Positions 9,200-34,934 of a DNA stretch of 35,670 nt are shown piece by piece (position 1 is the stretch's first letter; each line of letters opens with the position of its first letter). Origin of the DNA: Desulfocapsaceae bacterium (GTDB lineage Bacteria; Desulfobacterota; Desulfobulbia; Desulfobulbales; Desulfocapsaceae). The notes below the pieces were generated by a model. That model was not told the origin of the DNA, ran no database searches, and saw only the letters and a list, made by a program, of their open reading frames with translations. The position numbers and the translations under genes were made by a program. The stretch lies in assembly GCA_030653035.1 (NCBI GenBank), contig JAUSAB010000098.1, forward strand, positions 1 to 35,670. Reading direction: 5' to 3'.

Positions 9200-9306
9200 C
9201 CCTCTCCCAGAGGGAGAGGGTTAGGCTGAGGGGGAAAGGCCTGATTTAAAACCCCCTGCTGCCCCCCTCATCCAGCCTTCGGCCACCTTCTCCCTCAGGG
9301 AGAAGG
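9200..9306 (+). repeat. Composite palindromic repeat, copy 1 (hslU/eno spacer)
   Basis: The element opens with a 9-bp perfect stem (CCCTCTCCC 9200-9208, GGGAGAGGG 9212-9220). It continues through a TTAGGCTGAGGGGG-type segment and a CCTCATCCAGCCTTCGGCC segment. It closes with a 10-bp perfect stem (9286-9295 and 9297-9306, CCTTCTCCCT/AGGGAGAAGG). The length is 107 bp. The same plan recurs at 14423-14530, 18487-18590 and, reversed, 34695-34854. Between these convergent genes it may also act as a bidirectional terminator. Confidence 0.85.
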
Positions 9307-10757: not shown

Positions 10758-10812
10758 CTGCCCTCCTCATCCCTGCCCTTGTCCCTCAGGGAGAAGGCCG
10801 GGGTGAGGGTCT
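10758..10812 (-). repeat. Degenerate palindromic repeat, copy 2 (eno/hybrid kinase spacer)
   Basis: This short, imperfect relative of the family contains CCCTCCTCATCCC, GTCCCTCAGGGAGAAGG and GGGGTGAGGG blocks. It lies just after the hybrid kinase stop. Only part of the 107-bp plan is present. Confidence 0.55.
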
Positions 10813-10831
10813 TACCTGTAAAAAGCTATCC

Positions 10832-13501: not shown

Positions 13502-13592
13502 GTGACCGACTCCGTTTGATGATGACGATAAGGGACCTGCGTGTATGGTCAGAATATTCTATTACTCTGAGAATAGCCCCCCTCACCCCAAA

Positions 13593-13611
13593 CCTCTCCC
13601 TCAGGGAGAGG
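13593..13611 (-). repeat. Palindromic repeat half-element, copy 3
   Basis: CCTCTCCCT (13593-13601) and AGGGAGAGG (13603-13611) form a 9-bp stem with a one-base loop, preceded by CCCCCCTCACCCCAAA. It lies upstream of the hybrid kinase. The rest of the 13502-13789 spacer holds no gene; a further weak palindrome-like block lies at about 13699-13720. Confidence 0.7.
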
Positions 13612-13789
13612 GAGGAAGTTTCATTTCAGCCTTTTCTTAATAAGGGTATACCTGGGCAAAATCAGGATAATCTGGCTCACGATGTGCCTTTAAAGAGTTA
13701 CTCTCTCCTTCCGGGGATAAGGCTTTTGAAATAGTAATACAAAATTCCAACCGAACAATAATGGGGCTAAAGACTTGCATTTAACGTGG

Positions 13790-14161
13790 TTACTCCCTCT
13801 CCCCTCGGGGAGAGGGTTGGGGTGAGGGGGCAACCTCCATGCGCACTTGCTCGTATATCCGCTGTAAAACGGCCTCTGGTTCCGAAAGCATATCATTATT
13901 CCAGAACCGGATAACCTTGTATCCTTCTGCCTCCAGAAATCTGGTTCTGGTTTCATCGTAGGTGATGGTTTCAGCGTGTTGCCCTCCGTCTAACTCGATA
14001 ACGAGTTGGCGAGGCAGGCAGGCAAAATCGACAATATATGTCCCGATGGGCCATTGACGACGAAACTTGCAGTCTTCTATCTGCCGGTTTCTCAGGTAAC
14101 TCCAGAGCAGTTTTTCAGCTTCCGTCTGATTTTTCCTGAGCTGTCGAGCATGCTCTTTCAT
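13790..14161 (-). CDS. DUF559-type PD-(D/E)XK endonuclease-like protein
   Basis: This 123-residue protein matches the DUF559/Vsr-like nuclease family. The N-terminus, RKNQTEAEKLLWSYLRNRQ, is the usual helix with Glu16. IVDFAC carries Asp45. VIELDGGQH carries Glu56, Asp58 and Gln61/His62, which align with the PD-(D/E)XK core. VIRFWNNDML is the conserved last strand. Activity has not been shown for most family members. The gene lies inside 39-bp perfect inverted repeats. Its last 12 or so residues (APSPQPSPRGERE) and stop codon are encoded by the left repeat, and its ATG lies just inside the right repeat. Nothing adjacent forms a restriction or repair operon with it. Confidence 0.85.
   Translation of the reverse strand: MKEHARQLRKNQTEAEKLLWSYLRNRQIEDCKFRRQWPIGTYIVDFACLPRQLVIELDGGQHAETITYDETRTRFLEAEGYKVIRFWNNDMLSEPEAVLQRIYEQVRMEVAPSPQPSPRGERE
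13792..13830 (-). repeat. Left 39-bp inverted repeat of the DUF559 unit
   Basis: This copy is the exact reverse complement of 14169-14207. It contains a 10-bp palindrome (CCCTCTCCCC 13795-13804, GGGGAGAGGG 13807-13816) and a TTGGGGTGAGGGGG tail pointing into the gene. It also encodes the C-terminus of the DUF559 protein. Confidence 0.9.
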
Positions 14162-14168
14162 CGGAATC

Positions 14169-14207
14169 CCCCCTCACCCCAACCCTCTCCCCGAGGGGAG
14201 AGGGAGT
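14169..14207 (+). repeat. Right 39-bp inverted repeat of the DUF559 unit
   Basis: This is the perfect inverted partner of 13792-13830, ending eight bases from the DUF559 start codon. Its 10-bp palindrome is at 14183-14204, and it doubles as the first boundary of the 120-bp tandem repeats that follow. Confidence 0.9.
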
Positions 14208-14422
14208 TATAAAGAAATCATTGCCCCCTCGGGGAAAAGAAGCAGAATCATCTCTGATCAGTACGACAGCGCGAAGATTCAGCAAAAATATCAGAACAGT
14301 CCCCCTCTCCCCGAGGGGAGAGGGAGTTATAAAGAAATCCTTTCCCCCTTCGGTGAGAAGAAGCATACTCATCTCTGTTCAGCACGACAGCACGAAGATT
14401 CAGTAAAAATATCGGAACAGTT
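14183..14422. repeat. Two tandem 120-bp repeat units
   Basis: Units 14183-14302 and 14303-14422 share the same plan. Each has an opening CCCTCTCCCC palindrome, an AGTTATAAAGAAATC segment (14205 and 14325, exactly 120 bases apart), a CCCC-TCGG-type block and a CACGACAGC/CAGTACGACAGC-ACGAAGATTCAG segment. The first 37 bases are identical between units; the rest has scattered changes. A third boundary palindrome begins at 14423. No gene is supported here. Confidence 0.85.
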
Positions 14423-14530
14423 CCTTCTCCCTGAGGGAGAGGGTTAGGGTGAGGGGGAAAACCTGTTTTCAAACTTCCGCTGCTCCCCCCCCTCATCCGG
14501 ACTTCGGCCACCTTTTCCCTCAGGGAGAAG
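14423..14530 (+). repeat. Composite palindromic repeat, copy 4
   Basis: This near full-length relative of 9200-9306 has an opening near-palindrome (14423-14443), GTTAGGGTGAGGGGG, CCTCATCCGGACTTCGGCC and a closing CCTTTTCCCTCAGGGAGAAG. It ends 39 bases before the cyclase stop codon. Confidence 0.8.
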
Positions 14531-14568: not shown

Positions 14569-16560
14569 TCACCCAACCTTTCCCTGCTCCATCGGTCCCG
14601 TAGCTGTCTTCCTCTTCTTCTTGGCTGCATACATCTTGGCGTCTGCCAACGCCAGGAGCTCATCCAGGGAGCTGCCTCCCTGATTATGGACAATACCAAA
14701 ACTGATGGAAATCTGTTGTTCCGGTGGGAGTCCTTTGTTGATTTCGGCCAGTTCCTGTTCCAGCCTGGCCAGGATGATGGGCTCAGAGTCACTGCTTGAC
14801 ACGGAGGTGAGCAGGACGGCAAATTCATCCCCGCCCATGCGGCCGACAATATCGGTTTCTCTGACCGCTATGCGCAGAAGTTTTGCTGTCAGGATCAGGG
14901 CCATGTCGCCTATCTCATGGCCCTGGGTATCGTTGATCCACTTCATGTTGTCGAGGTCGGCGAAGATGATAAAGACCTCGCCGCCGGCGCGCTCGACATA
15001 GTTGAGCTGCTGCTGGGCAAGGTTCATGAAGCCGCGGCGGTTGCACAGTCCGGTGAGCTCATCGGTTGTGGACAGGGCCTGGAGTTGCTGTTCCAGCCGT
15101 TTTCGCTCGGAGATGTCCCGGAAGTCCTCAATGATTCCAGTTAATTCACCACTGTCATTGTAAAAGGGGGTGGCTGTTATCATACAGGACAATATGGTTC
15201 CATCCGGCCGGACCTTTTCCGCGTCATGCTCGATATGTTCAATCCCCTTGCTGATCAGACGTAAGGGGCAGTTCTCGGTATGGCAGTCGGAGCCGGGGAA
15301 AATATCATAACACTTTTTGCCGATTATTTGATCCTGGGGCATATTGACAAGATCGGCAAAGGTGATGTTGGCGCGTTTGATCTCGAAATCAAGATCAATG
15401 AGCCGCATACCGTCTGCCGCAGTATTGAAGATCTGATCAAGATCGGCGTGGGATTCGTTAAGTTCCCGCTGGAGTTTTTTGAGCAGGCGCATTCGATTTA
15501 AAAGTTTGGTTGTGTACAGGGCGTGCCCGGCGATGATCAGGAGTGAAAAAACGGTGACCAGGAGATAGCCAATGGTATAACGCCATTTCATGGCAATCAG
15601 GGTTGGACACCTCTCATAGGTCATAAGATAACCTGCCGGCTCCCCCGAAATATCGTTGATTGGCAAAAGATGAACCAGGAACCCCTCGTGTGCCAGAAAG
15701 AAAGGGAGAGAAACTTTTTCGTGTGCCGAGAGATGTCTGGCCAATGGTTTCCGCAGGCCCTGATTTAACTGTTCTATTATCTGTTGGTTGATGCCATTTT
15801 GATTTCCTGGGCTGTTATGGTTATGTTCATCAATAACTTTTTGATCAGCGGTTTCCATGAGGAAGTCATCGGCAAGAGAGGTGACGGTAAAGTGCTCGCG
15901 CAGGTCAGCAGCGCTCAGATGCTTTTCGGCCATTTGTTTGTTGGTAATAAAACGATATTCGGCGGGAAAGCTGGACATGAGTTCATTGAGGAAAGTGGAA
16001 AGGGGAATGCCAATTTCAACTGAGCCAAGATAATGACCGGCGGCACTTGTCAGGGGGAAAATAAAACGATACGCCTGCCAGTTCCGCCCCATTTCATAGC
16101 CGGCAACCGGCTGTTTGGTGCTGTTGACCTGCATGATTGAGGGACGGATGTCGGCCAGTTGGTCGCCAAAGAGCTCCGGCAAGTGCATGCGCAGAAAGCT
16201 GGTCCCGTCAGCGAGGTGAAAGTGCATCTGCCTGAATGAATTTTTTCGTAGATGCTGGTAGAGAGGGAATGCCATGTTATAGACTTCCCGGCGCAGTCTG
16301 GTTTGTTCTTCTTTGTTGGCTGTCGATGCCTTCTCTATGAGGGCAAGCATCTCAGGAGTGCTGAGCCTTTCATAGGCCATCTTCATTCGCTGTTGGTAGG
16401 TATGAGTTACCAGATTGTATTGGCCTTTGATCTCAGTTTGTCGCTCTGTGATAAACGAACCGAGTTCCTGCTCTTTGAACAGGTAGAGAGAAAACAGGGT
16501 GATTCCCTGGATGATCACAAAAAAGAAAAAATAGCGGAGGAGATTTTTTATCTGTCTCAT
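14569..16560 (-). CDS. Membrane-bound PAS-GGDEF diguanylate cyclase
   Basis: This 663-residue protein should make c-di-GMP from GTP. Transmembrane helices at about 10-28 and 329-349 flank a periplasmic sensor of about 300 residues, Cache-like by layout. A cytoplasmic PAS domain (about 370-490) follows with the loop GKKCYDIFPGSDC and Cys417, Cys426 and Cys431 (C-x8-C-x4-C). The GGDEF domain (about 495-650) has the intact motif GRMGGDEF at 573-580. It also has an RETD inhibitory I-site at 567-570, exactly five residues before GGDEF, so product feedback is expected. It is flanked by repeats on both sides. No clear ribosome binding site is seen before the ATG. Confidence 0.93.
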   Translation of the reverse strand: MRQIKNLLRYFFFFVIIQGITLFSLYLFKEQELGSFITERQTEIKGQYNLVTHTYQQRMKMAYERLSTPEMLALIEKASTANKEEQTRLRREVYNMAFPLYQHLRKNSFRQMHFHLADGTSFLRMHLPELFGDQLADIRPSIMQVNSTKQPVAGYEMGRNWQAYRFIFPLTSAAGHYLGSVEIGIPLSTFLNELMSSFPAEYRFITNKQMAEKHLSAADLREHFTVTSLADDFLMETADQKVIDEHNHNSPGNQNGINQQIIEQLNQGLRKPLARHLSAHEKVSLPFFLAHEGFLVHLLPINDISGEPAGYLMTYERCPTLIAMKWRYTIGYLLVTVFSLLIIAGHALYTTKLLNRMRLLKKLQRELNESHADLDQIFNTAADGMRLIDLDFEIKRANITFADLVNMPQDQIIGKKCYDIFPGSDCHTENCPLRLISKGIEHIEHDAEKVRPDGTILSCMITATPFYNDSGELTGIIEDFRDISERKRLEQQLQALSTTDELTGLCNRRGFMNLAQQQLNYVERAGGEVFIIFADLDNMKWINDTQGHEIGDMALILTAKLLRIAVRETDIVGRMGGDEFAVLLTSVSSSDSEPIILARLEQELAEINKGLPPEQQISISFGIVHNQGGSSLDELLALADAKMYAAKKKRKTATGPMEQGKVG

Positions 16561-16607
16561 TTATATTATTTGATTAACGCTTATTGCCGGCGTGTCTTTT
16601 CCTTAGT

Positions 16608-18486: not shown

Positions 18487-18590
18487 CCCTCTCTTTAATA
18501 GAGAGGGTCGGGATGAGGGGAAAAGGCCTGATTTTAAGCTACTGTTCCCCTTTATCCGACCTTAGGCCATTTTCTCCCTCAAGGAGAAGG
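18487..18590 (+). repeat. Composite palindromic repeat, copy 6
   Basis: It opens with CCCTCTCT/AGAGAGGG (18487-18494, 18500-18507). GTCGGGATGAGGGG and TTATCCGACCTTAGGCCA follow, and it closes with TTCTCCCTCAAGGAGAA. This is the same plan as 9200-9306 but more diverged. It lies between two kinase genes of one apparent operon. Confidence 0.75.
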
Positions 18591-34601: not shown

Positions 34602-34934
34602 AATGAGTAGCGGTTAAAGGGGTTAGCGATGAAAGGGCCTCACCTGTAAAAAACATCGAAGGTATCTTTGTACATACATATCTTGATGATTAATCCTTCT
34701 CCCTGAGGGAGAAGGTGGCCAAAGGCCGGATGAGGGGGGCAGCAGGAGCTTCAAACTCAGACTTGCCCCCTCACGTCGCTCCTGCGCCGTCCATGGCGCT
34801 CGCGACACTAAGGCGTCCTTGCCAGTCGCCTGCCCCTTTCCTTCAGGGAGAGGGAATCACTTTTTCAATTCAGGACCGAAGCCGGCAACAAAAATAATGC
34901 TATAGATTTATAGAGTATAACAGCTTTTCCCGTT
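34602..34934. other. Intergenic region between mutL and LOG-like gene
   Basis: This 333-base spacer holds the reversed composite repeat (34695-34854) and otherwise AT-rich sequence. No gene or clear promoter was found. Confidence 0.6.
34695..34854 (-). repeat. Composite palindromic repeat, copy 7 (reversed, enlarged)
   Basis: It begins with a perfect 10-bp stem (34695-34704, 34706-34715; CCTTCTCCCT/AGGGAGAAGG). GGCCAAAGGCC and GGATGAGGGGGGCAGCAGG follow, so its orientation is opposite to 9200-9306. About 55-60 bases (roughly 34775-34832, CGCTCCTGCGCC...) are extra compared with other copies. It ends in CCTTTCCTTCAGGGAGAGGG. Confidence 0.75.

Follow-up and report, generated by a model that had tools for sequence, protein, structure and literature searches.

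A DUF559 nuclease gene between inverted triplex-motif repeats: a candidate partner for TM/BoxC elements

The window, that is, the whole 35,670-nucleotide stretch of DNA analysed here, carries a DUF559 (PF04480) gene that encodes 123 amino acids and is single-copy in its genome. The PF04480 profile matches the protein at E = 2.5e-43 (146.8 bits; gathering cut-off 20.6), and the only other match, to PF18741, is below its own cut-off. As predicted from the sequence alone, the gene is enclosed by a perfect inverted repeat, the two arms of which are 39 nt long, 100% complementary and separated by 338 nt. The predicted tight fit of gene and repeat was likewise observed, with corrections in detail: the left arm encodes about 12 final residues (PSPQPSPRGERE) but overlaps the stop codon by only 1 base, and the right arm stops 7 bases, not 8, short of the ATG. 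Each arm has a 9-bp hairpin (4-nt loop) and, after it, a G-rich tail (GGGAGAGGG-TT-GGGGTGAGGGG), which is the mirror of the purine strand of the stem, and both tails point toward the gene. As DNA hairpins, the left arm (-9.9 kcal/mol, z = -1.12; 28/200 shuffles equally stable) and the right arm (-10 kcal/mol, z = -1.74; 11/200) are not unusually stable for their composition. We identify the repeats as the BoxC or intrastrand triplex motif (TM, TM_ECO) of Holder et al. 2015 (PMC4666352).

Related palindromes, also part of the original prediction, are present at seven other sites of the window, and the core CCCTCACCCCAACCCTCTCCC occurs 7 times at up to 5 mismatches, compared with 0-2 times in 20 mononucleotide shuffles. 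According to domain names read from sequence, the ORFs adjoining DUF559 encode a PAS-kinase and a GGDEF protein, and neither is a methylase. Near TM hairpins, a 121-bp segment upstream of the DUF559 ATG is tandemly duplicated, which may have doubled the promoter region.

Table 1. Features of the DUF559 locus and neighbouring repeats in the window
Feature	Position	Strand	Basis
DUF559 (PF04480) gene, Vsr/EDxHD-like PD-(D/E)XK fold	13790..14161	-	ORF, profile, model
Left flanking TM, hairpin outside, G-rich third strand gene-facing	13792..13830		repeat search, folding
Right flanking TM, exact reverse complement of left	14169..14207		repeat search, folding
Outer TM on the gene's 3' side, orientation opposite to left arm	13578..13613		repeat and core search
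Extra TM hairpin upstream of gene, without third strand	14303..14327		repeat search
Tandem segment upstream of gene, 2 copies, 83 nt, 86% identical, 121 nt apart	14221..14424		repeat search
Inverted TM pair without gene, REPIN-like, third strands inward	14422..14530		repeat search, by eye
Inverted TM pair without gene	9201..9306		core search, folding
Double-tailed TM palindrome	10762..10814		repeat search, by eye
Degenerate TM pair without gene	18488..18590		core search
Half TM pair	34696..34720		half-pair search

Across DUF559 loci the repeat sequence varies by lineage (GAGAGGG, GGGGAGGG, GGGGGAAGG, AAAGGGGG and others), while the plan of hairpin and mirrored tail is constant. The mirror identity between tail and stem was 0.81 for a locus's own stem, 0.72 for stems of other loci and 0.60 after shuffling, with an own-stem advantage in 108 of the 114 loci having a hairpin; orientation was picked by the own mirror score, which favours the own stem, and the result is supportive only. 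Where the mirror identity is at least 0.75, 65 loci have gene-facing tails and 17 have tails pointing the other way. Earlier work, in its main text, had described triplex formation by TM_ECO in vitro, unsupported in vivo, had reported no mobility gene near the motifs and left their origin open, and had cited prior work in which the motifs were without promoter or terminator activity (PMC4666352). The terms DUF559, ycjD and nuclease gave no hits in that main text, and a search of open-access papers yielded, among the matches listed, no paper linking DUF559 with TM repeats.

A predicted model of the window protein (pLDDT 85) resembles NGO0050 (3HRL; TM-score 0.89), the homing endonuclease I-Bth0305I (3R3P_B; TM-score 0.80 by Foldseek; profile E = 0.0012) and Vsr (1CW0_A; TM-score 0.50), all scores being normalized by target length. 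The motif E.DG.[QS]H, the acidic and His residues of which we take to be the catalytic site, is present in 156 of 168 DUF559 loci examined. To our knowledge, stand-alone PD-(D/E)XK nucleases have no strand-transfer activity. The protein is 76% identical to one from a genome of another family in the same order (G061) and 43-58% identical to ten other aligned proteins; because its closest match is from another family, the window gene likely arrived horizontally. Paralogues within one genome are only 38-55% identical, so no fresh DUF559 copies were caught, and recent duplication was rejected. Two further genomes (G068 and G074; loci L043 and L044) have the domain inside frames of 1008 and 944 amino acids without flanking repeats, which is a different architecture. 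Known family members include ycjD of E. coli K-12, according to the part of the source available (PMC12817139), and Caulobacter VsrA (CCNA_02930), a DUF559-domain protein that causes an SOS response upon loss of a cytosine methylase and proposed as a mismatch-repair nuclease, again as far as the available part of the report goes (PMC12907096). A defence system was rejected as an explanation, PADLOC matches being weak and partial only, as were a phage element (DUF559 in 3/50,697 phage records) and a plasmid element (45/72,556 plasmid records; 23 of the 40 among the matches listed exceed 0.5 Mb).

The original prediction called for a search for DUF559 genes with inverted copies at both ends. As flank score we took that of the best inverted alignment of the 250 nt before with the 250 nt after the DUF559 core, and 107 of 168 loci reached at least 40; the E.DG.[QS]H motif is present in 102 of these 107. 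When loci sharing genes on both sides were collapsed into sites, 74/119 scored at least 40 and 90/119 at least 30. Scores of at least 40 were found in Proteobacteria, Desulfobacterota, Nitrospira, Chloroflexi, Planctomycetota, Gastranaerophilales and Deinococcus. The rate among the 80 loci of the genome_contigs set (56/80 at this threshold) is inflated because the query used to pick them contained the repeat-coded tail. Sets picked by PF04480 only are blind to that tail and thus free of the bias; in these, 8/19 loci of the window and its relatives and 38/60 loci of one other order scored at least 40. The plasmid collection gave 5/9, with 9 of its 16 DUF559-bearing loci scored: L211-L215 (repeat-less copies of the site of L210, scoring 17-22), the truncated L220, and also L227 were excluded, and L221 and L226 were included owing to their position in an hpa operon. 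A further 78 IMG/VR loci (L130-L207) lay outside the scoring; the score of L111 rests on a poly-C run, and L115 contains gap Ns. The window genome holds one DUF559 gene, so that its within-genome flank test has n = 1, and the tests capable of refuting the prediction were done in other genomes, where none of the three did so.

Control ORFs in the genome_contigs loci scored at least 40 in 4/501 cases and at least 30 in 8/501, some of the 8 lying beside DUF559 repeats, and none of the 217 control ORFs shorter than 250 amino acids reached 30. Pairing the upstream flank of one locus with the downstream flank of another gave at least 40 in 38/315 and at least 30 in 99/315 combinations, so the kind of repeat is common to the loci, yet each locus matches itself far better. 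We regard the association of DUF559 genes with TMs as real and widespread, and are close to certain of it. Two loci, L089 (Legionella anisa) and L092 (Planctomycetota), stand out by the great length of their flanking inverted repeats (scores 252 and 173) and are possibly recent units.

Flanking repeats are not universal, with 61/168 loci scoring below 40 and 40/168 below 30. By flank scoring, the DUF559 genes of Azospirillum brasilense and N. gonorrhoeae have no flanking repeats, and the synteny groups L250.. and L230/L284 are likewise without them. E. coli ycjD has a TM on one side only: in the sapF-fabI region (L208, 2950-3500) BoxC copies are found downstream of ycjD, and immediately upstream there is a long non-BoxC palindrome (CACCTCATTCTGACAAG..CTTGTCAGAATGAGGTG). 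Three groups were rejected as empty-site systems. The ycjD region matches 3365/5426 E. coli genomes, and what the alternative allele carries there, according to the available part of the source (PMC12817139), is the eef operon, not a simple empty site. In the A. brasilense group, one shared site is occupied in 6/6 records without repeats. In Sinorhizobium, the flanks are too poorly conserved beyond a few gene-bearing records.

Sites without the gene were found in Deinococcus and in the window genus, along with spacers without repeats. In the Deinococcus hpa operon, a DUF559 gene with inverted repeats is located between hpaB and an oxidoreductase gene in D. proteolyticus, between the oxidoreductase gene and hpaE in strain NW-56 and after a VOC gene in D. 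aetherius, antisense to the operon; the copy of D. wulumuqiensis is truncated. In D. radiodurans, D. ficus, D. deserti and D. radiophilus, no DUF559 gene is annotated and no TM is present at the hpaB-oxidoreductase and oxidoreductase-hpaE junctions, where D. ficus has a G-rich run. By eye, no target duplication was recognised at the Deinococcus junctions, nor was a target-site duplication recognised for DUF559 units generally. In the window genus, the kinase-GGDEF pair is kept in G008, G004 and G013, all of which lack DUF559. Their spacers are approximately 267, 172 and 68 bp long, respectively, between alignment ends, compared with 1067 bp in the window; by eye, that of G008 contains a TM pair and a double-tailed TM, that of G004 a half pair and that of G013 none. 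Gain and loss of the unit cannot be polarised at each site, and many DUF559 genes sit at fixed, vertically inherited sites.

Repeat counts were predicted to track the gene across genomes, and did so in two sets. Among 97 relatives of the window genome, DUF559 is present in 14, in 2 of them inside large open frames, and 7 of the 11 genomes with at least 8 core matches are DUF559-positive (Fisher p = 6.6e-5), a value weakened by the MITE described below and including one genome, G068, that is positive only through a large open frame. In 151 genomes of the Luteimonas order, 39 of which carry DUF559, the gene is present in 21 of the 22 with at least 8 core matches (p = 4.6e-14). Adding a second repeat variant gave 26/28 DUF559-positive among TM-rich genomes versus 13/123 among the others (p = 2e-17), with G125 counted as TM-rich (128 matches, control 117) though its repeats differ. 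TM-rich genomes without DUF559 are G195 and G228 in the Luteimonas order and G004, G008, G038 and G095 among the window relatives; the repeats of G195 and G228 are as expected after gene loss, and also if other transposases spread the TMs.

Two protein clades, X and Y, were defined from the protein alone and assigned on 60 of 64 places (4 missing). Genomes with clade X have a median of 18 X-type repeats versus 1 without it (MWU p = 2.5e-5), and those with clade Y have 51 Y-type repeats versus 5.5 (p = 0.009), with cross terms of p = 0.49 and 0.08. By these counts, clade X clearly tracks one repeat variant, and clade Y tracks another more loosely. At least 20 Y-type matches are present in 12 of 32 DUF559-positive genomes without clade Y (for example, G100, G125 and G144), and the clade Y genome G252 has only 4; at least 8 X-type matches are present in 5 of 26 DUF559-positive genomes without clade X (99 in G136), and only 3 are present in G237, which has clade X. 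Near mirror symmetry of the X pattern makes a reversed control uninformative. Protein and repeat similarity were correlated (Mantel rho 0.28, against no more than 0.16 in 500 permutations), and in 19 of 24 cases the repeat of a gene was nearer to that of its closest relative elsewhere than to that of its genome-mate (p = 0.007); the Fisher, rank and Mantel-type tests ignore shared ancestry. One syntenic site holds 12 of 13 clade X loci and another holds all 7 clade Y loci, and because these sites are fixed, part of the match between protein and repeat is probably plain inheritance.

We read 40 dispersed copies, taken from listed, mostly exact matches in four genomes: 11/16 X-type in G182, 9/54 X-type in G202, 13/153 Y-type in G207 and 7/106 Y-type in G161. 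On a loose count, 31/40 are accompanied by an inward-oriented partner tail no more than 130 nt away (20/20 X, 11/20 Y), including three Y rows (L335, L338 and L339) in which the partner is the interior of a 0.9-kb element; on a strict count requiring a hairpin and a mirrored tail, 19/40 do (12 X, 7 Y), one row (L338) being doubtful. By eye, the sequence immediately beyond the hairpins is locus-specific, and none of the 40 copies has MITE ends. Inward partners and locus-specific outer sequence together mark at least half of the X copies, and a smaller share of the Y copies, as short-range gene-less versions of the bracket around the gene.

Genome G207 contains at least 2 inward pairs about 0.9 kb apart (L361:2690-3575 and 15589-16591), both ends of which consist of a TM and CGGGTGCTCGCGGTAACG, exactly or nearly. 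Upstream of the clade Y gene, the arm shares this end, with a one-base difference in G161 and as a near-match in G207, and the downstream arms diverge beyond the TM; in these elements and in the Y gene arm, TM ends resemble TIRs. The interior of the 0.9-kb elements is a nested palindrome (TTTTCTTTGC..GCAAAGAAAAGTAACC) with no obvious gene inside, and many partial matches at approximately 70-87% identity are found in G161, G168 and G105. One orthologous spacer is occupied by a 0.9-kb element in G207, by an inward pair of about 150 nt in G161, by TMs of a different variant in G227 and by a different insertion in G103, and is free of TMs in G168 and G105; a second is occupied by a 0.9-kb element in G207 and is free of TMs in G105, G161 and G168. 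The comparison shows turnover of TM units. The families of TM elements found in one and the same intergenic spacer differ between species (L366 of G227 versus L361/L363), as if some spacers were preferred targets.

The genome of the window itself is less straightforward. A MITE of approximately 170-190 bp with 16-bp ends (CCTAAAAACGGCAGTT) and, by eye, apparent 4-5-bp duplications contains 28 of its 36 TM core matches (25 read as loci and 3 checked later, with 2 of the 36 left unread), embedding being judged by a loose end pattern by which L022, L024 and L027 have one or a diverged end. The MITE carries an outward-facing TM pair (for example, in L002, L008, L009, L026, L303 and L305 on G000 contigs), and some copies terminate contigs (L016, L017 and L024), so the copy number may be underestimated. 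The repeat count of this genome is thus mostly MITE, and outside the window contig the scattered family consists mostly of the MITE with its TM pair; because 28/36 matches lie in an element with its own ends and apparent duplications, most TM copies of this genome were spread by other machinery. The window makes up 1% of the genome, yet contains 6/36 core matches (p ~2e-6) and 4 of the 9 B-type half-pairs (p = 1.4e-6). Accumulation of repeats near the gene has been reported for some RAYTs, in the part of the source available (PMC2817692). The prediction that no RAYT is present holds for the window contig, which has no Y1_Tnp match, but 7 matches are found elsewhere in the genome. None of these 7 loci has flanking inverted TMs (scores 17-28; one single TM-like match about 0.9 kb away), and a RAYT acting in trans was rejected on this basis.

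Taken by analogy with RAYTs, the DUF559 protein is probably the cognate nuclease of TM/BoxC repeats. More tentatively, with a probability of roughly 0.4, we propose a new class of bacterial transposable unit, in which a stand-alone Vsr-like PD-(D/E)XK nuclease recognises intrastrand-triplex DNA at both ends of its own gene and spreads BoxC/TM repeats and TM-bounded elements of approximately 0.1-1 kb across many phyla, which would include E. coli BoxC through YcjD. For a cognate nuclease in general, the gene between two inverted TMs would be the full element and the dispersed inverted TM pairs its gene-less derivatives. Exposed as a single strand during replication or repair, a TM may fold into the hairpin and third-strand structure, which the nuclease would recognise and nick or cut; repair of the breaks could then copy, insert or delete TM-bounded units in spacers. 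The gene itself would move rarely and otherwise descend vertically, and it may be domesticated upon losing its flanks. Of the original interpretation, which is partly supported, the nuclease-repeat unit is now well supported: most DUF559 genes surveyed have flanking copies, repeat counts follow the gene and sites lacking it exist. That the nuclease moves the repeats we infer.

An unlikely alternative is that other transposases spread the TMs and that DUF559 is a passenger using them as sites of recombination-mediated spread. In its favour are the MITE of the window genome with 28/36 core matches, the probable horizontal origin of the window gene and the orthologous spacers in G008 and G004 that keep TM sequence without the gene. 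Such a process should have bracketed other passengers as well, but no short control ORF (0/217) has such flanks; repeat counts, and for clade X also repeat variants, follow the DUF559 gene, and the 40 copies read in clade X and Y genomes are by eye without MITE ends. Less probable still is homing-type spread, in which the nuclease would cut empty TMs and the gene would be copied in by repair across the arms. The solved relative I-Bth0305I is a homing enzyme, and the G008 spacer has a TM pair and a double-tailed TM at the position of the window's gene unit; but the Deinococcus junctions without the gene are also without TMs, and because DUF559-positive genomes have 1-5 DUF559 matches and in many cases dozens of TMs, such homing would at best be a rare event.

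It is about as improbable, or slightly more so, that DUF559 is a domesticated Vsr-like repair nuclease whose TMs serve expression control or are neutrally inherited. The fold resembles Vsr (1CW0), many copies occupy fixed vertical sites or are without repeats, and a repair function would agree with the SOS response of Caulobacter VsrA, as described in the accessible part of that report (PMC12907096). This would leave unexplained both the co-occurrence with genome-wide repeat load and the usually inward geometry of the repeats (65 in, 17 out). Moreover, no methylase is encoded next to the window gene, the neighbours being those of a PAS-kinase and a GGDEF protein, and the motifs are without promoter or terminator activity according to work cited in the main text of Holder et al. 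(PMC4666352). The remaining possibility, which the original prediction had itself raised, is that the gene landed by chance in a repeat-rich spacer. The window is indeed TM-rich, but the cross-phylum association and the control ORFs refute chance as a general account, and we consider it highly implausible here.

A nuclease partner makes the origin of TM repeats testable in E. coli K-12, which bears ycjD. If the proposed relationship is true, it would suggest a function for a large family of nucleases annotated as unknown, show that the RAYT-REPIN arrangement has been reached a second time with a non-homologous enzyme and offer an enzyme that may act on three-stranded DNA. In annotation, C termini such as PSPQPSPRGE in DUF559 proteins are translated repeat and not protein family.

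Among known systems, the TM_ECO/BoxC motif shares with the repeats described here the GGGAGAGGGTTAGGGTGAGGG core, the hairpin with a third strand and the inverted pairs, but no gene partner is named and no mobility gene was found in the main text of its description (PMC4666352). Vsr, YcjD, NGO0050 (3HRL) and Caulobacter VsrA have the same fold, and all except Vsr belong to the DUF559 family; in the accounts available to us, none of them is tied to flanking repeats or mobility. I-Bth0305I (3R3P, EDxHD), an intron-encoded phage enzyme with extra DNA-binding parts, has a related catalytic domain but lacks inverted TM ends. Short, dispersed, gene-less elements with inverted ends are also known as MITEs of DDE insertion sequences; DUF559 units, by contrast, have no clear target duplication, and the ends of the MITE in the window genome differ from theirs. 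The closest likeness is to the RAYT/REPIN systems (TnpA-REP, REPtrons): a gene in few copies per genome lies between two inverted hairpin repeats, gene-less inverted pairs are dispersed, the repeat variant partly matches the protein clade, and in some genomes copies cluster near the gene, as described for RAYTs in the available part of the source (PMC2817692). The differences concern the enzyme, which is a PD-(D/E)XK nuclease and not a Y1 HUH protein, there being no Y1_Tnp domain in the window protein, and the repeat, which has a G-rich third strand and, by eye, no GTAG/CGTC tag; flanking is also not obligate for DUF559 (107/168 loci), as it is stated to be for RAYTs. RAYTs, too, are vertically inherited and of low copy number. 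The DUF559 system is not a RAYT but, by this analogy, appears to work like one.
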